DNA of 64,000 nucleotides from Sclerodactyla briareus (Eukaryota > Echinodermata > Holothuroidea > Dendrochirotida > Sclerodactylidae). The stretch lies in NCBI GenBank assembly GCA_026419785.1, contig JAODTK010004743.1, positions 1 through 64,000 on the forward strand. The letters are read 5' to 3'. Position 1 is the first letter of the stretch. Every line of letters starts with the position of its first letter. The position numbers were made by a program, and so were the translations under genes. Under the pieces are notes generated by a model. The model made no database searches and was not told the origin of the DNA. It saw nothing but the letters and a program-made list of their open reading frames with translations. This document shows, piece by piece, positions 6,641-61,090 of the stretch.

Positions 6641-7925
6641 ACACATTCTTACGACCGCGTTTATCACTCGCTGGTGCTGCGACATGATATTGTCTGTTTG
6701 AATGAAGTACACCAGAACAACATGTGCTCAAAACTATAAATTTTTGTTTCAGGTCATGAAATACGCTCTTCCTCATCTATGTAAGTTTCACAGCATCTTG
6801 CAGCCATCTCGGGTTATTAATTTAAACGATGCCACAGGCAAACGGAACCGTCCATTATTCTCCGGGTGTTGTGAGACGAGAATGTCTCTTTATGTCACCT
6901 CAACTAGAGGGCATTCTTCTGGGATAGTACCGTGTGCGTTTCTTTATTCCTCTGGGCGGATTATAATTGAAAAGGTGAGAGGGGGTCGTGACCATACTTA
7001 ACATTTTTGAGACACACAAATTGCTCCATTATTTCCAAATCCCCCCCCCCTTCACCTTGAGCTCGCAACATGTCTGGCACATATGCCTCGATATGTGAGT
7101 TTTATGGGTCGACACGGTATCAGACGCTTAGGCGTTTTCATACCGCGCAAAGCTGCTGTTATGAGTTTTCATGCTTTAACTCTATTAAATGGGCTCAAAT
7201 CATCAGATTTACATTGCCCAAGTAAGGATTGGTAGGATGGTTCTTTTAAGCCCGACTGCGGAAACCCACATGTTTTCTCCTTCCTATGGATTCACACCCA
7301 AAAATGCAGGCGCCGCTATTCGGAACGGAAATTAAACAACAGATATATCTCTGTTTGAACCCTCCCCCTCCAGGTTCGTTTAACTGACTGTCACTATCGC
7401 AGCGCGTAGAATACGGAGTCGGATCGACTGTTACTAGTAGTCCTTGCACAACTTGGCAGAAGAGCATAAGCCTTCAATTCCTGGAGTGTGAAAAGATCCC
7501 GATGTAATCAACGTACTGTCATAGAAAGAGAAATGAGTCCAAAGTTTGCACATACGACATCCATGTCTTCCACACATAATAAGTTTGCTTCCTAATCCTT
7601 TGACTTACTGGTTAGCTACGAGTAAACATGAATTACTCACGCAGACAGCCTACTAAGACTAGAGGAAAAAGGAAAACGATGCAGAATTTAAAGGAATAAA
7701 CTGCAACTGGGAGACTTTTTCTGGCGAATAAACAGTCGAGACTATGATTAGGTAAATAACGGATGAGGCGCAGCCGAGTTCTTTATTAGCTAAATTCAGA
7801 GGTCGAGACTGTTTATGAACCAGTAAAAGTCGACCTCTGTAGTTTCATTCCTATTCTCCAACCCACAATCAGGAATCACCCGAACGATTAAGATCTCTGT
7901 CTGTTCTCTAGATCTATTCTTGTAT
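6641..7925. other. No recognisable gene
   Basis: The open frames here are short and show no domain. A 10-bp inverted pair (ATAAACAGTC near 7728, GACTGTTTAT near 7808) lies inside a repeated GTCGAGACT context. A C-run lies near 7043. Nothing else is supported. Confidence 0.4.
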
Positions 7926-39404: not shown

Positions 39405-40500
39405 GCCCCGCTGCGCACTGGGTTGCCAACCGCCCCTGGGCGCACGTGCTGCAGGGGGCGCCGCAGGCGCACCCGGGGCTGCCGGTCCCCCTTAGCGAAA
39501 AACAGTACTTTGCTGGTAGCGCAAACTTATCGCTTCGGACTGCGTATGCCTTACTGAGCTCTGTCTCGTTAGCTGCTGCTGCTTTGGGAAAGTGCCCTTC
39601 GCACACGACTACCTAAGCGCGTACGCGAGATGGCACCCCCGACCTCGACCTCGCTCCTCGTCGTCACGTGAGGCGCTCGAAACTAACAGTAGGCTTCTCG
39701 CTAACTTCTCTTTAAGGCTGGGCCGCCACGCCCCGCTGCGCACTTGGGTTGCCAACCGCCCTGCCTCGGGCGCACGTGCTGTCAGGCGCGCCGCGGCGCG
39801 CTCCAGTTGCTGCCGTCCCCCTTAGCGAAAAAAGTACTGTTGGCTAGGTACCACTGTATCGCTTTTCGGACGTGCGTATGCCTTTACTTTACTGCCGTCT
39901 GTGTAGCTTGCTGCTTTGGGAGTTGCCCTGAACCCGCATGTATGTATGTATGTTGTATGTATGTCATGTCTGTATGTATGTATGTACTGTATGTATGTAT
40001 TACGCACGACAACTACCTTAGGGCGTATGTGGGGTGCCTGCCCCGCCCCTCCTCTCGGTCGCACAGTGAACATGCGAAAACCTTGGCAGTAGGCTTTGCG
40101 AACGTCTCTAAGAGAGCTGCTGCAGTTTTTCGGTATTATTTGACCTGGGGTTGCCAACCCCCTCGGGGCGCACTTGCTGCAGCGAGCCGACAGGCCCGCT
40201 CGGGCTGCCCCGGTTCCCTTGGCGAAAACAAGTACTTTGCTGGTACCCCATAGCGCATCGAACGTGAGTTGCCTGAAGTTGTAGTATGTATGTATGTATG
40301 TTATGTATGTATGTATTTATGTATGTATGATGTAGTATGGATGTATGTATGTATGTGTAGGTATGTATGTATGTATGTATGGATTGTATGTAAGTACTAC
40401 GACGAATACCGTATCGCGACGCGAGTGGACGGCCACAACCTCTATCGGTGCGCGTTAACATCCAAAAAAACTTAGCAGTAGGATTCGCAAACATCAAAGC
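39405..40500. repeat. GC-rich satellite, three monomers with embedded GTAT microsatellites
   Basis: Monomers start near 39407, 39732 and 40145, each with GGGTTGCCAACC.CCC..GGGCGCAC.TGCTG, then CTTAGCGAAAA, AGTACT..G.TGG, a GCGTATGCC-type segment, and end with GCAGTAGGC/ACAGTAGGCTTC. GTAT tetranucleotide tracts interrupt monomers 2 and 3 (39938-39995 and 40284-40392). GC content jumps sharply against the AT-rich flanks. Long frames here (up to 169 codons) are repeat artefacts. A fragment of the same family opens the window. Confidence 0.75.
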
Positions 40501-47929: not shown

Positions 47930-48330
47930 GGCTTGAATCCTTAGAGGGGCGCGCTGGCGCAGCCATCGTAGAGATTGATTTTTCGAGGGGCGTACTAGCG
48001 ACACCATCTTAGTCTTGAATCCGCGAGGGGCGCGTTGGCGAAACCTTCAAAGGGCTTGAATCCTTCGAAGGGCGCGCTGGCCCAACCCTCATAGAGATGA
48101 GTCCTTTCAAGGGGCGCGTGGGCAACCCTCATAGAGATTTTGAATTAGTCGAGGGGCGAGCTGGCACAACCCCTTGGGGCTCGAATCTACTAGGGCGCGC
48201 TGGCGCAAACCTCATTGGGCTTGAATCCTTCGAAGGCGCGCTGGCGCAACCTAATAGGAAATTGAAGGCCTTTAGGGCGCGCTGGCGCAACCCACATAGA
48301 GATTGAATCCTTCGAGGGAAGCGCGCGTAG
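47930..48330. repeat. GC-rich minisatellite, about eight to nine units of 40-55 bp
   Basis: Each unit reads roughly TTGAATCCTTCGAGGGGCGCGCTGGCGCAACCCTCATAGAGA, with substitutions and indels. Core GGCGCGCTGGCGCAACC occurs in most units. Frames through the array encode a repetitive peptide and are not taken as genes. Confidence 0.85.
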
Positions 48331-49360
48331 AGATGATGCTTACTGTCATACAGCCCGGGAAGAGCCTTTTCCTGCAATCGGGGAGGGGGAGAGTTTGGAA
48401 TGGAACATTATCAGGGCCGCTACGCGCAAACCTAAGGTGTGGGGCTCTACCCTAGATGATGCTAGATCAAGGTCCCCTCCATATCTATCACAACATCGTC
48501 GCCCATGCCGTCAGGAGTTTAGGACGAAGCTTATGGTACATCGTGTACCGGTGTGTAAGTGGCGGGAAGTTGGAACGATGGTAGTAGGGGAAATCTTTCC
48601 TGATGCTGGGGTGGTCTTCCAAGTCGACGAATAGACATCAGAGATGACTCGGAAATATCCAGCAGAACAAGATGTGTGTTATGGTGCCTGCCGCCCTTGA
48701 TCAGTCTCCAATAAGAACAATAGAGAAGAACAGCGGGATACAAAGAATTCTATGAGGCCCTGTAGTAAATGCCAACTAACATAATTAATTCGAGCTTGGC
48801 GTTCACAGGAAACTAAGACTCTAGCGAAGCGTTCCATTTAATCCGTGCGTAAACTGAGGGGACTTGAGCAGAGGCCTTCACGTGTGTTTAACTAGGTTTA
48901 TAATGTTCTATATAAACCAAACTTTCATATGCACACAGTGTGCTATTACCTGCCAACTTACCATAAGAGATGCTCGACCCTTACATCATATTTGTCTGTT
49001 ATCTGGTGAAAAGGGATCACAAAAACTGAATTTAATGATTTACGTCAAAAATTGTTATAAACGCAAATATTGCGTCCATGAAAACACAACGTGTATCCCA
49101 TACACAATTTAGTAACACAAAGCATGTTACATTCGTCCTCGAGGCTTTTTATTTGATTGGATGTCTGAATTTTTACCGAAAGTAATGACAGTTCGACCTT
49201 CAATGAATGTTGCTCATTGCTTTGCTTTAATATGGAGGCGCTTCATTGTTTGAAACATCGGGACTCCCGAAGCCACTTTTGAAGTCCGGGCTGCCGGAGG
49301 GCCGGGGCTAATCATCGAAGTTTACACGCTGGCCACCTAATATTTTTTTTTCTCTCGCAG
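48331..49360. other. No recognisable gene
   Basis: Left flank of the DIRS element. Short frames only, with no domain. A poly-T lies near 49342. Confidence 0.35.
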
Positions 49361-49388
49361 TTCGCGCCCGTCTCCAGTTTGAGGGGCC
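49361..49388. repeat. Left flanking direct repeat of the DIRS element
   Basis: CG..CGTC..C.AGTTTGAGGGGCC immediately precedes the CAGGGGG terminus. It matches 56923-56948 imperfectly in the same orientation. Confidence 0.5.
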
Positions 49389-49448
49389 CAGGGGGCATAT
49401 GACGTGAGTTAACCCCCCTTCGTTAAGGGGGTACTTACGAGGGGCACT

Positions 49449-49600
49449 TACCTTCTGACTTACTACAAATTGCATTTTAAGCCAAACGGCCGCTTCAAAA
49501 CACCTATACCACCACTAAAAAAGACTTAAGCACAGCCCCGGTACTGAACGCAGCCGTAACTAGCTGGGAGCGGTAAGGGGCTGCTACTATCATTCCAACT
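49449..49600. repeat. DIRS inverted terminal repeat, left copy
   Basis: Reverse complement of 56759-56902 with indels. Shared blocks: TACCTTCTG.ACTTAC, AATTGCATTTT, AACGGCCGCTTCAA, CCTATACCAC..CTAAAAA, CCCCGGTAC, GTAACTAGCTGGGAGCGGTAAGGGGCTGC and ACTATCATTC. The left end carries an extension of about 60 bp outside the shared part (49389-49448), which is found again in the internal complementary region. Confidence 0.9.
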
Positions 49601-49650
49601 AGCACCGATGTCCCCTGCTTAGTGGGCGGAGGACGGGTAGGTGCGGGGTC

Positions 49651-49742
49651 GAAGGTAAGTGCCCCTCGTAAGTAGCCCCCTTAACGAAGGGGGGTTATTT
49701 AACTTACTTCAGGCACTACCTTCTGGACTTACTACAAATTGC
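49651..49742. repeat. DIRS internal complementary region
   Basis: The first half (49651-49702) is the reverse complement of the left end (about 49400-49456): GAAGGTAAGTGCCCCTCGTAAGTA and CCCCCTTAACGAAGGGGGGTTA are both present. The second half (49703-49742) matches the reverse complement of the right end (CTACCTTCTGGACTTAC). Joining both termini in one internal segment is the template used for the circular junction in DIRS replication models. Confidence 0.85.
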
Positions 49743-50084
49743 AAGCCTCCACCGCAAGGATGGGGTGGGAAGCCGGGGAGCGATTTAAATCCAACTAGAA
49801 TAAAGACCACTCACCATAAGAGCAATATGCTCTGGAGTACCGTCCGCAGTCAAACCAGAATACAGACATCCGAGCGGGGCACCATCCGTCACAGGCAGGA
49901 TGTCCCGAGCCAGCCACAGCCCAACACAATACGCTCTACGACGAGGCCGGGGTTGGGGAGAAGGGGGAGAGGCACAGGGGCCGACGGTTACCGAGAGGCC
50001 AGTGACCCCCCCCCATGCGAGGGGCCACCAGACGCGGAACTCGGAACGCGACCCCCCGCGGGGAGGGGAAAGCGGTGGCGATCA

Positions 50085-51080
50085 CTCCGCAGGGGTGGGT
50101 CCCGAAGGGTAGGAAGCGATAAAGGTATTCTAGAATTCCATCTCGCAGCTTGTAGAAAATCCTCCAACGGCACACCTTTATAGAGCGCGAGGGAGGAGGC
50201 ACCCCACCCCGCACCATCGAGAGCTCGCCGGTCGAGGACGGACCAACGCCCGGCGGCGGGATCACGATGACGATACAGCGAGAGATTGTATCCGTGGAGG
50301 CGCGTGTATGAGGGTCGCTGCGTGAAACAAAAAGCGACGTACACGGACCACGAGGGACGGGTCCGATCCAAGGTTAACCCGAAGGGCCCGACCGAACCGG
50401 GACACCTCACTCGTCCCCCTCCATCCCCAAAAGCAGCGATGAAAACGGAAGCGGAGAGAAGAAGATTGACGGACTGCGTCTTAGTGAGACACGCCGGGTC
50501 CGGAACCAGGCGGACCCCTGTTAGGCTCGAAACGCATATGGCCGGGGAGGATAGACGGAGCAAGCAAGCCACCACGGCGCCGAGCCGATGCCGCGCAAGA
50601 AGGAACGCTGTCTCAACCCCAGCTGCTGCAGGAGAGCAGTCCGCTAGCAGTTCATGGGAGGCGCGCTAGTATCCGCAGGACGTCCCCAGCCCCAGGGCGG
50701 AAACTAGAGTGCGAACCTAGCACGATCCAAGAAACATGCTACGAAGGGGAAGGTCAAGTGGCTTCGCAGAAGAAGCACCGTTGACACTTCCCGAAACCGC
50801 TATGTATAGCCGCACCAACAGCGGCAGCGGTTAACCCCGGATCGTTGTTCACTTGCCGCCCTACCAAGGAAACAGTAGAGGAGAAACAGGCCACCTCCCG
50901 ACCGTGAACGCGGCCGGGGAAACCTGGCGATCCGCACCACCACCCTCGTTACATCCGAGTCGCGAATTCACACAGGAGAAGGGTGGAAACTCTCCGACCC
51001 GGGCCGCCATCGCGCAGCATTCTCCGAAAGGCCCGACGCACGGAGGGAATCCCTGACACTCGCCACGCAACCAGGCCCCG
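50085..51080 (-). pseudogene. DIRS tyrosine recombinase, frameshifted
   Basis: This enzyme would integrate the circular DNA copy through a covalent phosphotyrosine intermediate. The C-terminal signature is clear: YKGVPLEDFLQAARWNS at about 50132-50182, followed after one shift by NTFIASY and after another by YLRD, which carries the expected nucleophile tyrosine. Upstream, FLLA.H(A)S.RR.GAVVA (about 50560-50620) fits the helix that carries the first catalytic arginine, and HRDPAAGRWSV (about 50240-50275) lies where H-x-x-R is expected, but the second arginine appears only in another frame. The N-terminal part near 51000-51080 (LVAWRVSG-like) follows the RT/RNase H connection. At least four frame changes interrupt it. 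Confidence 0.75.
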
Positions 51081-51084
51081 AGCC

Positions 51085-51460
51085 TCCGGATGCGGACGCG
51101 TGTTCCCAGACCCGTAAGCCCAGGATGCGAAAGCCGGGGAGAATACGCGGAGCCCCCGCCAGCAACGCCCGGAGTGGCCGGAACCCGCTTAGGGTCGGCC
51201 AAACGACGCTATTCAGGGGGACCCAACACGGCCCCTGCAACCTTCGACTAGGCGGAACGGCGGGAAGGCGTACGCATCGAGAAAGGCCCAACCAGAGCAG
51301 AGCATCGACCACCCAGGCGACCCTCGACGGACTCGTTTGCAGAAGAGAGGCCCAGCTTTCGTTGCGAGGCGATGCGAAAAAGTCCACCTCCGGACGATGA
51401 AAACGACTGAACAACGCTTTGGCACAACTCCGACGTTGAAGAGACACTCTGAGGAGAATT
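51085..51460 (-). pseudogene. DIRS post-RNase H connection region
   Basis: The region downstream of RNase H in DIRS polyproteins is recognisable by VDFFASPRNES (about 51361-51390), then VDALLW and, after a shift, AYAFPPFRLVEG (about 51250-51285), with a WP.L.GFRPLRALL segment behind it. These match the conserved EVDLFAS.RN......VDALS..W....AYAFPPF.LI...L block. Its function is unknown. It links RNase H to the recombinase. Confidence 0.72.
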
Positions 51461-51820
51461 GAGTGAGCGCGAGAGCATGTCCGCGTGGATTTCTTTGAAC
51501 CCGGAAGGTGACCGCCTGATAACGCACCCCGTGCGTGGCGGCACCACCGGAACAGATCCTAGGTCAGTCTGACCATAAGACTCCGCGAATGCGTCCGGCC
51601 CTGCTGGGTTATGTACTATACCACTCGCGGTGACTGGTCGCAACGGACCAGTACAGATCGGCCCGCATCTCGTTGCAATAATTCACGTCGCGGACAACGC
51701 CCCCTCTCAACTCGAGCACAATTAATGTGGGGTTTCCCCGTAACTCCCGAATCCCACACGTGAGCCAAGCAACTCCAGCGAGGCGTCCGACGTGAGGCAA
51801 AAGGATGGACGGGAAGGCGG
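51460..51820 (-). pseudogene. DIRS RNase H domain, frameshifted
   Basis: The domain would remove the RNA template during reverse transcription. LTSDASLELLGSRVGFGSYG (about 51735-51800) contains the opening catalytic aspartate motif (TDAS..GWG...G). Later blocks are NYCNEMRADL, the QQGRTHSRSLMVRLT region (about 51560-51610 in a shifted frame) and HADMLSR (about 51467-51487), which is the closing ADALSR motif. The order and spacing suit DIRS/Gypsy-type RNase H. It is continuous with the RT upstream. Confidence 0.8.
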
Positions 51821-51939
51821 GAACCGTACCCCCTGCATTACGTTGTCCCTATTCAGCCACCCCACATGTATTATCAGTCCAGTGTGTCTGCCACTGCACT
51901 GCCTGGCGTCGACAATCCCGAGACGACGGGCGCAAACCG

Positions 51940-52760
51940 CCAAGAGGTGGTTCCTGGAGGGTCGCATGTTACAGCCGGCAAAAAGGGGCAGTTCCACTGG
52001 GTTCGCGCCATGAAGCCGAGGAGAACCAGCCACCCCCGCGCAGGCAGAGTTCTGCTTTGAAGCAGCCGCAACCCCACCCGGCTTTGGCAGGGCCTCCAGT
52101 CCCCCGGGTTGGGGTTTGGCCAACCCCCGTCCGCGTAAATCGCTCTGCGCAACCAGATAAACGATCCGTGGGGACGGTCCCAGGTCGGACTTTGCGAAGT
52201 TGACGAGCCATCCCAGGCGCCGCGCACAAGGTCCAGACCATGCGGTGCTCCTAGGAACCTCCGCCGCTGAGTCCACCACGATAAGCCAGTCGTACAGATA
52301 AGGAAGATCTGGAGCCCCCTGAAGACGAGAGATGGGCCACCCATGGCAATCGAGACACGTGTAAACACCCGGGCTGCCGTCGACCACCCAAACGGGAGAC
52401 TGGAAAGTCGGTAGGAGGAAGCGCTCTTGGTCGGGGAGACGGAAGTAAGGTAATCTTCCGCCTGACCGGGGATATGCAAGAGTATGAATCCGCTAGGTCA
52501 AAGACGTCCGCTCAGAGGCCCCTCCGGGGTGTTTGAAACTCACCGTGGGGTTCCATGCGGAAGTGGGTGGGCGGACGAAACGGTTTTGAGAGGACGCTAA
52601 GTATTCCAATATCGGGCCGCCAGAACCGTCCCAGCTAGGGCGAGTCAGGAAGAAGGACGACCACAAAACAGTGGGCACTTTCTTCCTTGTGGAGAGAGGG
52701 AGTAATGGACCCCTGGCCAAAAAGGTTTCGAACTCCCTCTCCAACGCCGACGCTTGGGAG
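51940..52760 (-). pseudogene. DIRS reverse transcriptase, YxDD altered to YLYD
   Basis: The domain would copy the element RNA into DNA. Blocks in order: EFETFLARG (about 52720), PILEYLASSQNRFVRPP (GGWRPILDLR..N.F...PPF type, about 52560-52620), YFHIP/HIPG entry near 52475, SLPFGWSTAARVFTRV (about 52360-52410), then LPYLYDWLIVV (about 52280-52305), VNFAKSDLGPSP and VYLVA (LG.L.N..KS.L.PS..I.FLG type, about 52150-52205). The catalytic box should read Y-L-D-D-W. Here the codon for the first aspartate is TAC (52286-52300), so one metal ligand is lost. Fingers and palm are spread over three frames. Confidence 0.85.
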
Positions 52761-53499
52761 CGGTCCGCGGGCCGGCGTTATTAGCCCAAAACGCCCGGCA
52801 GCTTTTCAAACCACACACTAGAGTACGGGGGAGGCGCCGTAAACTACAGACGATTTTACCCTGGGAGAGGTGGTTAGGATCACCGTCCCGAGGTGAAGTG
52901 GGCCAACCCCCGCAAAGCCCGGAGATGACCACACACAGGTGGGTCCCGCCCGGGCGGTTCCGGGACGGGGGGCCGGTAGTCACTTACCACCGGGCTGGCT
53001 GGAGGCATAGCCTCCTTTCTGCCAGGGAGGGAGAGAATTGACGCCCCCCTGGGCTGCCGGGCGCTGGCCGGGTTTACCCTCCGGCTACGGGGGGTGGGGC
53101 GAAGGACCATCGCCATCCGGGGGGGCCGAGACGCTGAGGGCTCCCCTGAGCGCGGCGGCACTATGACCAGAAGACTGTCCTCTAGGGCGAAACGTCTTGC
53201 CGTCTTCCAGTACGTTTCCACACGGGAAGCGCCTGTCCGGACCGGGGAAAACAGCTACCGAGGAGGGTCGGGGGGGACCAAAAATATGGGGCGCCGGAGT
53301 TCGCCGCTGCGACACGAGGAAGAGAGGTCAAGTTCCGTAGTAGGACCACATCTCCCCCCCTCCGCAAAGACGTTGCCCAACGGCAAAGCGGGCAAATGAT
53401 ATCGCAGGCCAGTCTAGAAAACAGCGCGTCCTGGCACATCTCGCCACTCACCTCCCCGCAAGGAGGGGCGTGGGGGTCTGCCGAACATCGTCACGGCCG

Positions 53500-55295
53500 G
53501 CGAACCACTCCGCTAAGAAAACGTGGAGAGACAGAGACTTGATACCGAATCCGTAACACGGTCAAAAACGGTGAGATCGGCGTTCTCGGTCCGCCGGGTC
53601 CGATCCCTTCCAAACGGAGGAAGGACCCTTCCCCATTCCTTGGCCGGGAGAACCGAATCCTCCCGACAGGACCAGCCTGTCCCACGCCTCCGGCGGCAGG
53701 TAGGGGAATGGAGAATGGGCAATCGACTGTGCCTGGGGTATATCAATGGATGCGGTCCTCCCGCTGTGGACGCTCGACGGGGACGCCCTGCCCTAGCCTG
53801 GAAACTGGAACACATCCAGCGACATAGGGAGAGTAGGAGCGGGCGGAGCCGGATCCCAGTGCTGGTCCAAACGCCCCAGCCTGTCGGATCCTCCGTCGCG
53901 GCCTTCTGGGTCTTTGACAAGTTCAGGGAAAAGCCCGACCAGTACCGGCACCGCCGCAGCGTAGTCTGCCTCAACGAGGCCCTAACAGGTGGTGTCCGCT
54001 TCGTCAACTGAAGGGGCTCCCTGGCCCGACGGGCCCCCCTAACGAGGGGGCAGGGAGATTCGCCGGCGAAGAACGGAGCGTCCGAACCCTGTACAACGTC
54101 GGATGCGTGCACGTCGATCTCCGGTTCGAGGACCGGCGGGGGAAGATCGAAGTCTGTGTCTGATGGCTCAATCGCCCGAACACATCGGAGACGTACGGGT
54201 AGGAACAACCGGACACTGAGAACCCTCCCGGCACGCGGGAGTTCCGGTGTCGTTCGAGGAGGGGAGGTGGACCAGCGAGCGCTTCCCGTCCCCGGGCGGA
54301 GAGGCCTCTCACTCCGGGCGTGCCGCCCTTTGAGCCACACCGTCGTCAGGGACTGAAGAGCTTCCAACGTTGAAGCTAATTGCCCCCTTGAAGCATCGCG
54401 CTTCTTCTAGGCTTACAAAACGGGACTAACGAGAGGGGACATGGACCTTGTCCTCCTTTTTCCATAAACCCTCCGCGGAACGACTTGTCAGGGTAAGTCT
54501 CAACCCTATCATTTCCCGCGCACGGACGGGCCTTGCAGTCTGGGGCGGGATCGGAACACGGAGACAACAACTCCGCCCGTCCCTGCAATAACAAATCCTG
54601 AACCGAATTCCCCGCATCGACAGGAGGGGGATGGGGGATCCCCGAAGAGACCCAAGGGGGAGAACCCGTCGCGAGGGTTGGTTGGGCTGCAGCCCCAGGG
54701 GGCACGCCCCCAAAACCCTGGTGTGCGCCATGACGGTTCCCCATTGGGCCGCCCGAAAAAACCTTGAGATCCCAACTGGGTGGGCGCACTAACATGACTA
54801 CGTCACCCGACGCCCTGTGGACGGCCGTCTCCTAACAGTTCCAGGGCCTGAAACGTACCGACCATTCCGGGAGAAACACCATACACATATTCTGTGGTGC
54901 TCCAGGCACTCGTCCCCCCTGGAGGAACGTTCCCTACCCTGTGCCCCCGGCGCAGGGGTCGTGCCAACCCCACGTAGAGCCAACTGTCCTGGTAGGGGGT
55001 GGCTGAGGCCGGAAACCCCGACACGCGCGGAGGCCCTGCCCTCACCCGGTTTGGATCATGACGACGGAATGGTGCGCAGCGCCACCGTAGTTCGTCTGCA
55101 AACAGCGTCCCCACCCCCCGGGGGACCCATTCCCCCCCCCAGGCCGACGCAGAACGGTCGCCTGAGGTGGAGGGAGAATGGAGGGGGACTGATACAAACC
55201 GAGGTGCCCCAGAGGGATCCGCAATGGTCCCTGAAGAACCCGGTGGTGGACGAGTATTAAGCCCGTGTCCCTTCAACGCAGTGACCGGCACCACC
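53500..55295 (-). pseudogene. DIRS gag-like region, frameshifted
   Basis: This region occupies the position of gag upstream of RT in DIRS elements. The longest open stretch (53513-54367, 284 codons) contains EALQSLTTVWLKGR and an acidic block with DFDLPPPVLEPEIDVHASD. In its second half the neighbouring frame becomes more protein-like. Upstream frames (54376-54795 and 54803-55294) are proline- and glycine-rich. No zinc knuckle is evident, which is not unusual for DIRS gag. The identity rests on position and composition, not on a conserved motif. Confidence 0.5.
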
Positions 55296-55299
55296 GGAG

Positions 55300-56758
55300 T
55301 CGTCCGGCCCCACGCGGGCCCATTCCCCCATTACTGGCGAACCCAACAAGGGAGCCGCTGGAGGGAAAGGAAGACAGGACTCAGGAGGCCCGACGCTCGA
55401 AGAACGGGGGGACCCGGAGGGATCCCACCAAGCATGGATTTGAGCGCCGCAAGCGCCGAAGCCGCAGTAAAAAACGGGAGGACCTCTGATGCTTGCGGGA
55501 GTGCGCTGGCTCGAGACACTGTAACGTAATGCTCTTCATCTTACAGAACTGAAAACAGCCAACGAAAACAGAGTTAGTAAATCAGTTAGTGTACTCACAC
55601 TAAGTACTCTACATAGACGATGTACTCGAATAGGTTTCAAAGGACCCGGGAGCGCCCGATGGGTCCCCAACAATGACCCCCTGCCGGCCCTACTCTGAAA
55701 ATCAAATTTGCACTTTGGACCCCTAAAAGGGCTTACTGTTTACGAGATATAGAGCAACACGTGAAAACTGGCAACGCAACCGGTAAAGGCCCACCCCCCC
55801 ACTTACCGGGGGGGTGGGGAGGGAAAAGCATGACCGGTCAGAGGTCCCCTTAGGGGGAACCCAAGACAAAACACCCAAACCCCAGGCCACCAGGGAGGGT
55901 AAACAGCCCCCGACGGGCGAATAAAGATTGCCGCCAAAGCTACTGGCTGTGACGTCCCGCTCCAAAGATGGCTCATCTGAAATAGGAACAAAAAATGCTA
56001 CAGGTCATCACATGAAAAGAAAATTTTGCCCCTACCCCCAGCTATAGCCTGCACACAGCGGGTAACATATGCGTGACATATTAATAAAAATAGGACTATA
56101 GACCACAACAATTATGGCACCCCAAGCGCATCCGTAGCAATGCTAAAAAAGGAACGTGAGGTGCCCTATTGATATGCAAATTAGGCACGGCCTGAGAGCC
56201 AGCGCTCTGAGCGCCTGAGGGCCTAGCCACACCGCCAACGGGGGAAAAAACACACAATTCACGGACGAAAACCCCCATAGCCACGTGTGTAACGTCCCAG
56301 TGCAAAGCTAGCGATAGGCGAGGAGGGGACCAAAAACCGCTAGCGAACTAGTGGATGGAAACAACCCCCTCCGGAGCCCAAGGGGGCGGACAGAGCCCAG
56401 AGAGGGCTCGAACGAACCGAAACAAGATAGGGGGAAGGAAACGCCCTTAGCCCGGGCGGGGAGGGAGGGAGAAAACCCAGCCCCCACGGAAGAACGGTCG
56501 GCCCAACGAATCCCAAAACAAAAAGACCCGGCAAACACAAGACCTGCACTGGCCCGCTAATCGAAAGTTACGATCCCAGAATGGGCAGAAATGAGTGAAT
56601 TAATTACAGAAAATACCCACAAACCCCCAAAAAGAATTATATCACCAATCCATATCACCTGATAGGTGGTTGGAAAGGTGGCAGAAAGTGGCGTGAGAAT
56701 CGTAAACTCAAACGAGATAACAGTAGGCCGTGTGTTGCTGTGAACCACACACCGAAAA
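55300..56758 (-). other. DIRS 5' region without recognised coding sequence
   Basis: Lies between the right ITR and the gag-like region. The open frames are short and proline/glycine-rich. I cannot tell a long leader from an extra, decayed coding region or a nested insertion. Confidence 0.4.
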
Positions 56759-56902
56759 GAATGATAGTGCAGCCCCTTACCGCTCCCAGCTAGTTACGGA
56801 TGCGTTCGGTACCGGGGCGTGCTGAACTCTTTTTAGTGGTATAGGTTGTGTTGAAGCGGCCGTTGGCCGAAAATGCAATTTTCGTAAGTCCAGAAGGTAA
56901 CC
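56759..56902. repeat. DIRS inverted terminal repeat, right copy
   Basis: Partner of 49449-49600. It starts at the AGAATGATAGTGCAGCCCC segment and ends at CCAGAAGGTAA. The outer 20 bp reach the CCCCCCTG end at 56922. Confidence 0.9.
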
Positions 56903-56922
56903 GTCCAGACACACCCCCCCTG

Positions 56923-56948
56923 CGAACGTCAATCAGAGTTTGAGGGCC
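56923..56948. repeat. Right flanking direct repeat of the DIRS element
   Basis: CGAACGTC...C.GAGTTTGAGGGCC follows the CCCCCCTG terminus directly and matches 49361-49388 in the same orientation, imperfectly. Confidence 0.5.
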
Positions 56949-59525
56949 ATTACACCCTCCCTGTTAATCTAAAACTAATTGTGAAAAACAACACAGCAGT
57001 TTTGTCAGTGTCCATCAGAGATCATATGATTGTACAAACAGTCTATTCCCCTAGATGAGGCCCGTAACGGCTTCCTTCAACGCAATGGAGGAGGAAAAGG
57101 AAACACCTCTTTCCCCCCCTTCCCCACCTTCTTTTCCCCTCCCCCCTCCTCTATATGTTTGTGTGTAATTCAAGTCCGAGATTGGTGTGAGGGATGCTTT
57201 TTTGCTCAGACCACAAACATTACTGTGTGGATATTGTCTGTGGGGAATATCTCCAAGCCATTGGTTGTTGATGGATATATTTCAAGTCCCGTATCGTTTC
57301 CATCGTAGTCACTCATGAATGTCAGGACTTTCCTTTTAAATATTTTCTCTTCTTAACAGCGTTTGAGTGTATCCGGATGTGAGCGGGGCTCCAGCGACCG
57401 GTGCTAACCTATGGCAGTGCCTGGACCGTGGGAGGGTCTCTCCAAGCTCTGTACTGTCAGGACCTATGCAGTGGGATACTCGGAGTACCCAGCTACCCAA
57501 AGGAGCCCAGAGAGTATGTATGAAAGCACAGTTTATATCAAAGTCAGCATTTATGAGAGGCCACATCTTCCATATATTCACTAGATCTTTCTTCACTTTT
57601 GGGTGTAGTGTCACCAAATCCTAACATTTGTTCTTAGCAACCCACCCCACCTAAAATATTCACGAAAACTTTGCTGAAATACAAGTGCAAGGTCGGAACG
57701 TCTTGGATAGCTGCGGACAGCAAAATTCCTGTGGCGAATACACTGCATGTTTTTCGCCATTCACATTTATTGTCGTTCCACATTCAAAATGTCTCTATGA
57801 CATCTGTCATAACCATGGAAATGACTTGGAACACATGTCCCCACAATTGGCCTAATTGCTATCAGTGCCCATTCTAGCTGGGCAGTGAACAGGGAAACCA
57901 CACTTCCCACAGAATGAATATCTGACATTGTTGACCCTCAATAAGTTATAGTTGAACCACCTCCACAAGTTTACCATTAAACAGCATTTAGGAGGGGGAG
58001 GGCGCAAGCCCCCCCATTTCCTAGGTCATCACTTAGAAATTGGACCGAGATGTAAAACAAATCCTGTGGAGGAGGGGCAATGTAAACTAGGGCAATATGT
58101 GAGGAAAGACAATCCTCTCCCCCTGGACCATAGTTTTTAATTGTCAACTAATTTTGAAAACATGACCTTCTGACAGTAGTAGGAATGGTAAACACTGCTC
58201 TCAGATATGGAGTATGTACACAACTTGTTTGGAGTAGGGAGCTCAAATAATTGGACATTGGGGTAATTAATTGGATTTAATTAAAATCCTAATACCACTA
58301 TACGAACATAAATTGTAGCTAAGGCTAGCTAGTATCAAGCTTCAATCCAACCCACCAAGTTTCAACCTGCTTCGCATGGATGGTTTAAGAAGTATGAATG
58401 AAGAACGTGCGAACAGAAGGTACGAACGACGACGAAAACGAACGAACGAACGAACGGCGGACGGAGAGACAACTGAATGACTTGTAGAGCTGCTCTCCTC
58501 CCGCAGCTACGAACAAATTGAATCAGTGATACTGTAATTGTTTGTTTTTTCCTTGACAAAGTCAGAGAATTTATGCAGTCATGGGAATCTATTTCAATTA
58601 ACTCACTTACACTACCACATATGCACTCCGCATAGGGTTGCCAGCCCGGACTACTGTAAAGATTGCCAGATTTTCAATGCGCGGGGTGGGGTGCAAATTG
58701 GCAATATGGGGTAAGTATTTCTATTTCACAGAATTCACAAACCAGTAAGTTTGTGGAGTGTGTTGGTGTGCGTGTGTGTTTGTATGTGTTACATATGTCT
58801 GTGATGCCTGGCATATACATAGGATTCATCAAAGCTCATACTTGCATCTGTGTTTCCCGTCCCATTAGTTCCTGGTCCCTATGTTTTTTTGGTCAGGTCA
58901 GGGGTCATTTGTTGTCCGCAGAGGCAAAGTCTGAAGTAACATCTGATTAAAAAAGTATTACATACTAAGACCACAACATTACTCGTGCCAGTATACACAG
59001 ACACCACCTTTTGCATGGTGGGATGGCCTTCTCGATCGTCGTGCAATACACAACTCACAGTTTCTAAGGCCTCTAACTCTCTAAAAAAATCATACAGACT
59101 TCGGTCAGACTGACACATTCATTTATTCCTCAGCTATTTTATGAGCCTCTTTTTAATTGTAAATCCCCGCAACACTGATAGTGTCAGGGATATTATGTTT
59201 TGACCGTGTGCCCGCCGTCTCCGCGGCGCACCACGGCGCCACCGCCCGCCACCGCCGCTGCCACCGCCGCGGAACTTTAGGCGTCAGCACTCTATTCTTA
59301 ACACTTTATCCGTTGACACAAAAATGGTACAAGTCTTATGAGTAAAATATCGGATATAAATTGAAAATGGGCTATAAGTATATTTGCTGCCCGCTATTTT
59401 GAAGGTTTCCGCCAAAATTTCAAGTTGTGGGATTTACACGAAATGTGTGGTTGGGGGTGTTTGTTGGAGCCAAAAAAAATGGGACAATTTCAATGGGTCA
59501 TCCGAGTAAGTTTGCATTTCTTTGG
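56949..59525. other. No firm gene; weak exon candidates
   Basis: An acceptor-like TTCTCTTCTTAACAG ends at 57359 and a GTATGT donor lies at 57514, but all three frames between them contain an early stop. A minus-strand frame at 58879-59118 (with TVSCVLHDDREGHPTMQKV) is unassigned. An ACGA tetranucleotide tract lies at about 58437-58456 and a CCG/CCACCG-rich triplet tract at 59211-59273. Confidence 0.35.
59211..59273. repeat. GC-rich CCG/CCACCG triplet tract
   Basis: Imperfect repeats of ACCGCC, CCGCCG and GGCGCC within AT-rich surroundings. Confidence 0.7.
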
Positions 59526-59529
59526 CTAG

Positions 59530-61090
59530 TAGCCTATTAGCATAATGTATGTGCTATTCACCAAAACTTCATTTGATTTTCTGAAAACTTGGGATAGGGC
59601 CAACTATCAGTGCCGATGAATTTTCCTAATGTGGCGAGGGTCATTGGAGGTCATCTTGCTGACTAATTTGCATAATAGTTGGACGACAGGACCCAATTAG
59701 CAATAGGCAAATTTATAAACTTTGTTGATCTCACGAATCTTAGTGAGTTAGGACCTTCTAACAGTCACGATAATTTATTCAATGGCGTTGAAATCCACTG
59801 AAGGTCATTATGCGTGTTTAATTTACATATGGTTAGCATAATTAGAATAAATCAATGCAAGTATTTTCTCAAACTCTTAGGGATTTGACAAACTTCGGAA
59901 TTGATAGGACCTACTACCGTACCTGATAAATTTATGCAATAGCATTCCAAGATCAATAAGGGTAAATTGTGGGACTAATGCTATTAGTTATCGTGATCAG
60001 TCCAAAATGTTGAGTTGAATACTTTTTCGAAAATAACATTGGAACATGTTAATTGGAATGCCATATGGCTTTAGGAGTGATGCAACACATGGAGTGTAAC
60101 AATTTTCATAGAAACCGCCATGTCATGAAGGTAATTAAAAGGTCACTTAGGGGTCAAAAACTGATTTTAGTACTTTGTCGGCAATAGACTGGGTGTGTTC
60201 ACAGAATGCAAAAGGCTCTAGGAGTGGATGTATCACAGGAGAGTAACCATTCTATGAAAAAACTGTCGTATCATGAAGTCATTCGAGGTCACTTAGGGGT
60301 CAAAAACTGGTTTGGGGCTATAATCGGAGAAGTCAGAATGAAATATGCGAAGGTGGATGGTTCCCCATTGTGATATAATTGTTGACTGCATGTGTGTGAC
60401 TCTGACCGAATTTGACCTTGTAGGGGGGTCATGTGGTTTAAAGGTCGGATCTGAATAAATGTGCTTATTTTAAGAGTTAACGGGCGCAAAAAAAATAGAA
60501 AAAACTGGGTATTTTTGGATATGTGATAGAGCTTTGTGTGCTGTATGGAGTGGGAAACAACTCCCGCTTCGATAGGACACTTACTTTGGTAGTTACAAGG
60601 GCGTGTCCAAAGTCAAGTGTTATACCTTTCGACAATAAAAACCAACACCCCCCAATTGGACATGTCATTGGAATGCCATTGCTTCTTGGAGGGATGCATT
60701 CACATGGAGTGTAACAATTTTCTAAAAAAACCTGCCATGTCATGAAGGTCATTAATTCCTTAGGGGTCAAAAACTGATTTTAGTACTTTCGGCAATAGCC
60801 ACTGGGTGTGTTCATCAGAATGCAAATGTCCTAGGGTGGATGTATCACATGGAGAGTAAACAATTCTCATAAGAACTGTCATATCATTGAAAGGTCATTC
60901 GAGGTCACTCAGGCGTCAACCACGTTTTTTGGCTATAATCGGAGAATGAATATCTGCGAAGGATGGATGGTTCACCATGTGATCTTAATGTTGACCTGCA
61001 TGCACGTGTGACTCGACATGAATTTGCCTCGCGGGTGGTCATGGTGTTAAAGGTCGAATCTTGAATAATGTTGGCTTATTTAAGACACAC
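59530..61090. repeat. Complex tandem array, subunits of about 150 bp and period of about 610 bp
   Basis: The block 60045-60475 recurs at 60655-61080 (GGAATGCCAT, CACATGGAGTGTAACAATTTTC, CATGTCATGAAGGT, AGGGGTCAAAAACTGATTTTAGTACTTT, GGCTATAATCGGAGAA, TGGATGGTTC, GGTCATG.GTTTAAAGGTCG). Inside each copy two subunits of about 145 bp share CTAGGAGT.GATG.A.CACA, GTAACAATTCT.AT and TC..GGTCACT.AGGGGTCAA. More diverged subunits of about 150 bp precede it (59580-59990; CATTGGAGGTCAT/CACTGAAGGTCAT/TTCCAAGATCAA). Confidence 0.7.

Follow-up and report, generated by a model that had tools for sequence, protein, structure and literature searches.

Positions 49,389 to 56,922 of the 64,000-nucleotide stretch analysed here (contig JAODTK010004743.1 of the holothurian Sclerodactyla briareus, positions 1 to 64,000, hereafter the window) raise the question whether the repeat-bounded DNA found there is a DIRS retrotransposon and, as an initial annotation had proposed, a structurally complete one. 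The element, which lies on the minus strand at ~49408-56901, is very probably a copy of a DIRS1-like (order DIRS) tyrosine recombinase (YR) retrotransposon. This identity, the first part of the proposal, is supported by features that were observed directly, namely the anatomy of the termini, an internal complementary region (ICR) that joins complements of both ends, motifs of the pol gene, and a multi-copy state in the genome with many copies sharing coincident ends. A YR is supported but not proven, and gag, the replication, the circle and the insertion chemistry are presumed from known relatives. The element represents a further family of a well-known retrotransposon type in which nothing departs from the accepted DIRS model, and it adds a long multi-copy family to an order in which replication is understood chiefly through anatomy.

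Local alignment of the two ends identified inverted terminal repeats (ITRs) at 49448-49595 and 56759-56900, in which 132 of 150 columns are identical (score 196, compared with 28 for the best of 500 shuffles); ITRs were also seen within the copies fetched from the genome. Near the left end, one half of the ICR (49648-49697) pairs with the left end at 49410-49459 over 49 of 51 columns (score 88, with no shuffle of 500 above 25), and the other half (49717-49743) pairs with the right end at 56874-56899 over 25 of 27 columns (score 42, at most 26 in 500 shuffles). As these scores lie far above those of the shuffles, the ITRs and the joined ICR are real and not due to chance, and the initial annotation was right on both points. 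A repeat search of 49000-57500 returned inverted pairs between both ends and a segment at 49650-49740 that pairs with both of them. The 3' extension at 49410-49432 is complementary to 49676-49697; it is present at left ends and absent from the right ends inspected, and when folded it was no more stable than shuffled sequences (z -0.36). The window further contains a direct repeat (49433-49474 and 49702-49743), which is the ICR half matching the right end, and 49699/49702-49743 matches the right ends of the copies L055 and L057 beyond the window's own right end.

To define the ends, copies were searched in the animal's own genome (a 319-Mb assembly, window contig C2487), and all copy numbers given here are lower bounds. 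With the leftmost 800 bases as query, 40 of 276 candidates were scored; the 39 other copies among them showed 76-83% identity, and in 36 of these the match starts at window 49397-49427. The right 500 bases yielded 40 scored of 269 candidates, and the match stops at 56882-56909 in 38 of the 39 other scored copies, in 25 exactly at 56900. Bases 56902-56922 were unmatched in the other scored copies, except for two matches reaching 56909. The reverse transcriptase (RT) region as query gave 40 scored of 130 candidates. The copies thus agree with each other on where the element ends, and because their ends coincide further in, at ~49408 and 56900/56901, the end points 49389 and 56922 proposed initially lie ~19 and 21 bases too far out.

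Twelve stretches holding other copies (L055-L066) were fetched for comparison. L055, L056, L057 and L059 are colinear with the window copy from end to end and L060 in two pieces, with a length of ~7.3-7.6 kb. In this copy, a length of ~7.5 kb had been called unusual and ~1.4 kb between the right ITR and the gag-like region unexplained; the length and a long sequence ahead of the coding region are both present, but since the five other colinear copies, at 7.3-7.6 kb, share them, they belong to the family and are not a peculiarity of the window copy. L061 has an internal gap relative to the window, L063, L064 and L066 (~4.6, 4.1 and 1.2 kb, respectively) have large internal deletions and retain both ends, in L062 and L065 parts of the element are repeated or overlap, and L058 has a divergent middle and a match that ends at 56845. 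G+C content is 60-62% in the 50-56 kb block, compared with 38-45% in 2-kb bins wholly outside the element.

The left ends of other copies read (N)TT-AACCCCCCTTCGTTAAGGGGGGCT or variants thereof, and NTT-AACC is exact in 13 of 30 distinct left ends, the window's included. Right ends of other copies finish ..AGAAGGTAAGTGCCCTGAAGTAAGT or variants, with the exact GAAGTAAGT finish in 10 of 17 other distinct right ends. The last ~16-nt stretch (GTGCCCTGAAGTAAGT or a close form) is present in all 17 and absent from the right end of the window copy, and the window's right flank shows nothing resembling it (score 10, compared with a random maximum of 18). The window's ICR retains at 49702-49716 the complement of these ~16 nt, as fits the DIRS model. 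The ICR joint reads GGGGGG-TTAAC-TTACTTC or a near form in seven distinct copies when a loose pattern is used, and exactly so only in L011/L062. Left ends, right-end finishes and ICR joints appear to be in line with the NTT termini and the right extension (rE) described in PMC3266345. No target duplication was seen by eye in ten copies with both ends (L055-L057, L059-L064, L066), a test limited by sequence noise. AGTTTGAGGG occurs in both flanks of the window copy (49376-49385 and 56937-56946), and an equally good match was obtained in 32 of 2979 random pairs.

In the window copy as assembled, no minus-strand frame is open over a domain, and the longest open stretch in the family copies examined spans 384 codons (L063). 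Part of the DIRS1-like group has a long overlap of the YR and pol ORFs, whereas the frames read here are broken. Because the pieces are short and the frames shift, frameshift-tolerant tests were made. Eight pol motifs from PMC2685390, where they read for instance LTTDAS, ASKSGWG, IRLHCD, ADALSR and DLFAS, were searched for as an ordered chain across all sense frames. The chain scored 156 in the window, whereas 200 shuffles gave 118.8 +/- 5.4 with a maximum of 140, and the antisense strand gave 106; the RT and RNase H motifs claimed for the minus strand were thereby recovered in the right order. They run from 52401 down to 51370 (SLPFGW, YLYD, LGWLVN, LTSDAS, GSRVGFG, VLVRCD, ADMLSR, DFFAS) in frames 0 and 2. 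In six of eight other copies the chain reached z 2.7 to 7.3, with motif positions taken without a homology check, and some of these matches, e.g. RDTISR in L057, probably lie elsewhere. In a second approach, a Ty3/gypsy RT of the same genome was aligned with frameshifts allowed (gap 9, frameshift 8). The window scored 68 with the alignment ending at 52297 (maximum 60 in 60 shuffles), and L056, L061 and L065 were positive at the homologous place. With the strictest setting L056 retained its signal inside the RT span, L061 and L065 were above shuffles with best ends just upstream of this span, and L055 and L060 were above shuffles, but elsewhere. Very lax frameshift penalties were discarded due to their high background (166 for the window and 159 for the best of 40 shuffles).

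For the YR, six motifs, chosen after translations of the copies had been seen, were sought in order within the homologous 1 kb. The test was confined to this region because a chain over the whole element had missed the YR region of the window. From 29 loci (L010-L038) 26 passed the length filter, which together with the window gave 27 regions. A z above 2 was obtained in 22 of the 26 other copies and in none of the 27 antisense regions (motifs not chosen blind), and the mean z over the 27 regions was 3.8, compared with -0.5 for antisense. At the expected HxxR site, a count by word over 27 distinct aligned copies (28 rows, of which L026 and L065 represent a single copy; frame inferred) gave CTC before GA in 18, CAC in 2 and another word in 7, and the box tentatively reads L-D-V-R in most aligned copies. 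The HxxR motif is variable among the 28 elements covered in PMC3266345, in which HSTR is found in 13. A Phage_integrase search of the genome gave one match of four candidates (L054, C1216:519173-519349), which has a 171-codon open frame. This locus is possibly a Crypton-type recombinase.

Several results weigh against the identification as a DIRS1-like element. Pfam searches returned no RT, RNase H, YR or Dam match in 10 window pieces, in the 81 pieces of other copies that were scanned, or at E up to 10 in 10 pieces, and NCBIfam returned none in 8 pieces. The 81 were drawn from 128 pieces of at least 150 codons, the remainder being same-copy duplicates (L050, L052), antisense pieces and the shortest ones. 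Matches to Phage_Gp19, Oxidored_molyb, Dynein_C, Iso_dh and LEU3_arch were rejected as weak, below cut-offs and biologically unlikely. The window contig was absent among the 150 scored RVT_1 matches of 1330 genome candidates, and tblastn of window pieces against the best RT loci of the genome and its single Phage_integrase locus, L054, gave chance-level matches only. We treat the failed profile search for RT and YR as a weak refutation, because the pieces are short and frame-broken and the published pol-motif chain was positive. This chain did not stand out in L062 (z 0.7) and L065 (z 1.0), the RT alignment at gap 9 and frameshift 8 was not above shuffles in five of nine elements, and at a stricter setting the window signal was lost (z 0.8). 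As to a methyltransferase, only the DLFAS pol motif (51370-51384) was found, with no Dam profile match in the pieces scanned. The tyrosine recombinase motifs reported initially were not recovered from the window copy alone, neither in its homologous region (z 0.4) nor by the chain over the whole element (z -1.0), and the YR motif test is not independent, since the motifs were chosen after the copies' translations had been read. Furthermore, four extra bases are found at the window's ICR joint.

Read 5' to 3', the DIRS1-like element, as a minus-strand insertion, would consist of a 5'-ITR, leader, gag, RT, RNase H, YR, ICR and a 3'-ITR with its extension. According to the accepted model for the group, the element RNA would be reverse-transcribed, both termini would pair with the ICR, which would guide end joining into a circle, and the encoded tyrosine recombinase would insert this circle at a trinucleotide that matches, with no duplication of the target. 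As it stands in the assembly, the window copy is unlikely to be autonomous or to move by itself, because its right end is partly absent and it lacks a frame that stays open across a domain; for the same two reasons it does not qualify as structurally complete. Part of this damage may be assembly error. The coordinates of all features are listed in the table.

Table. Features of the probable DIRS1-like element, in order of position within the window.
Feature	Position	Strand	Evidence
Probable DIRS1-like retrotransposon copy, 5' end right, 3' end left	49408..56901	-	Shared ends; five colinear copies
3' right extension (rE), C-run/G-run palindrome	49410..49432	-	Left ends only
3' inverted terminal repeat	49448..49595	-	132/150 columns against complement of 56759-56900
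ICR half complementing 3' (left) terminus 49410-49459	49648..49697	-	49/51 columns
ICR half complementing 5' (right) terminus	49698..49743	-	25/27 columns of 49717-49743; right ends of L055 and L057
Presumed tyrosine recombinase region	49950..50950	-	Ordered YR motifs in 22 of 26 other copies, not chosen blind; window z 0.4
DLFAS motif of DIRS1-like pol, reads DFFAS	51370..51384	-	Motif of PMC2685390
RNase H side of pol: LTSDAS, GSRVGFG, VLVRCD, ADMLSR, two frames	51467..51796	-	Motif chain
RT motifs SLPFGW, YLYD, LGWLVN, two frames	52199..52401	-	Motif chain; gypsy RT alignment
Presumed gag and upstream pol, G+C-rich, frames broken	52500..55540	-	Position only, no profile assignment
Presumed 5' leader	55541..56758	-	Colinear in L055, L056, L057, L059, L060; coding boundary putative
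5' inverted terminal repeat without outermost ~16 nt	56759..56900	-	Alignment; 17 other right ends

In the surroundings of the element, the left flank gave one match in the genome, with no empty site or second haplotype. A 41-bp minisatellite of ~7-9 copies (window 47934-48318; matches 66-68%, indels 11-12%) lies just left of the element, and at the end of the right flank stands a very common, short dispersed repeat of ~220 bp (window 57681-57900), for which 1202 candidates were found and 39 others scored at 81-86% identity. Further out, the window contains a TGTA microsatellite (40280-40396, 11% indels) and a repeat-rich stretch (60003-61085) that matches the flank of locus L036 in several registers at 72-78%. 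A tRNA search of the window gave none. In the copy L055, positions 7876-7887 (minus strand) hold 12 bases directly before GAAGTAAGTTAACCCC, and the same arrangement is found at the same place in L012. These 12 bases are identical to the end of the common Illumina adapter, and the GAAGTAAGTTAACCCC following them looks like the right and left ends of the element joined to one another. The adapter-like word is absent from the window.

The copies of this family are diverged, and the character of the divergence was analyzed. Sixteen long matches, drawn from 11 of the 12 stretches fetched, differ from the window by 9.6-16.0% substitutions at a transition/transversion ratio (ts/tv) of 0.45, with 0.62 indel events for each substitution; two thirds of these indels measure 1 bp. 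In pairwise comparisons of 29 left-end pieces ts/tv averaged 0.57, insertions and deletions were about equally frequent (384 versus 354, with 1 bp the commonest length), and only 22 of 771 columns had a second base common to at least 6 of the 29 pieces. Ordinary decay is usually rich in transitions and deletions. The profile found here resembles that of uncorrected long-read sequence. Six HSP70 exon pieces (L068-L073, contig C2424) were compared by eye with the conserved HSP70 protein, and five of them contain indels while L073 has none, which suggests residual long-read error in the assembly, although pseudogenes are possible. Histones gave four partial matches of seven candidates. Assembly error probably contributes to the damage of the DIRS copies, and the small indels seen even in HSP70 exon pieces call for care with pseudogene calls and repeat ages in this assembly.

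Alternatively, the divergence and frame damage might be real, in that an old family spread in a single burst and then decayed, in a host whose mutations show no transition bias and include many small indels. We regard this as a serious possibility that falls somewhat short of an even chance, and it is compatible with the DIRS identity. A similar profile is seen in the few other genome repeats compared (ts/tv 0.57 and 0.44 indels per substitution in 11 non-identical pairs, about half of which are registers of one window stretch), the copies of a second RT family lie at 69-92% (16 other matches), and the gypsy RT stretch has other matches at only 66-70% (7 others). Likewise, the indel density of the HSP70 pieces, as judged by eye, is below that of the DIRS copies, and the assembly is not noisy throughout, since locus L001 has a 385-codon open frame. 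Against such decay stand the near-equal numbers of mostly 1-bp insertions and deletions, the few shared second bases, the low ts/tv, the indels in five of six HSP70 pieces and the scarcity of histone matches. Taken together, the age and activity of the family cannot be read from its copies. A bolder proposal would be that a long DIRS1-like family (~7.5 kb), with Leu for His in the second YR box, has spread to at least dozens of copies that look old only because of noise in the assembly, in which case the family may be of recent origin or even still mobile; this we consider rather unlikely.

Misassembly could in principle also have created the element itself, as a chimera of pieces from several copies and not one insertion. 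That misassembly may occur is indicated by the repeated or overlapping segments in L062 and L065 and by the adapter-like 12-mer at the left junction of L055. The window copy, however, is colinear throughout with L055, L056, L057 and L059, and with L060 in two pieces, and both of its flanks lie in the same contig, the left one without a second match, which makes a chimera highly improbable. Slightly less probable still is that the element belongs to the PAT-like or Ngaro-like YR retrotransposons, whose repeats are direct and split. The motifs of RT, RNase H and YR do not by themselves tell the groups apart and a long direct repeat is present, but the latter is explained by the ICR half matching the right end, the termini are inverted and not direct in the window and in other copies, and the 3' extension with an end-joining ICR is the DIRS1-like signature of PMC3266345.

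The DIRS1-like element shares with the PAT-like and Ngaro-like groups the enzymatic set of RT, RNase H and YR, whereas their repeats are split direct or of the A-B-A-B type (PMC3266345 and PMC3783388) and those of the window are inverted and accompanied by an ICR. With DIRS-1 of Dictyostelium discoideum, compared by its description in PMC3266345 only, it has in common the ITRs, the right extension, the 3' ICR and the gag/RT/RNase H/YR logic, and it differs in size and host. The 28 elements in Table 3 of the same source (Piednoel et al. 2011) measure 3974-6283 bp, and most of them have NTT termini; in contrast, the window family measures 7.3-7.6 kb, for which no record length is claimed, and may differ from the elements described there in its HxxR box, tentatively L-D-V-R in most aligned copies. 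GaDIRS1/2, SkoDIRS2 and TnDIRS1a of that table resemble the window copy in an ITR of ~150 nt, in an rE of 26-27 nt (~23 nt in the window), in ICR halves of 36-65 nt (~46-50 nt in the window), and apparently in the start trinucleotide GTT with the circular junction AAC.

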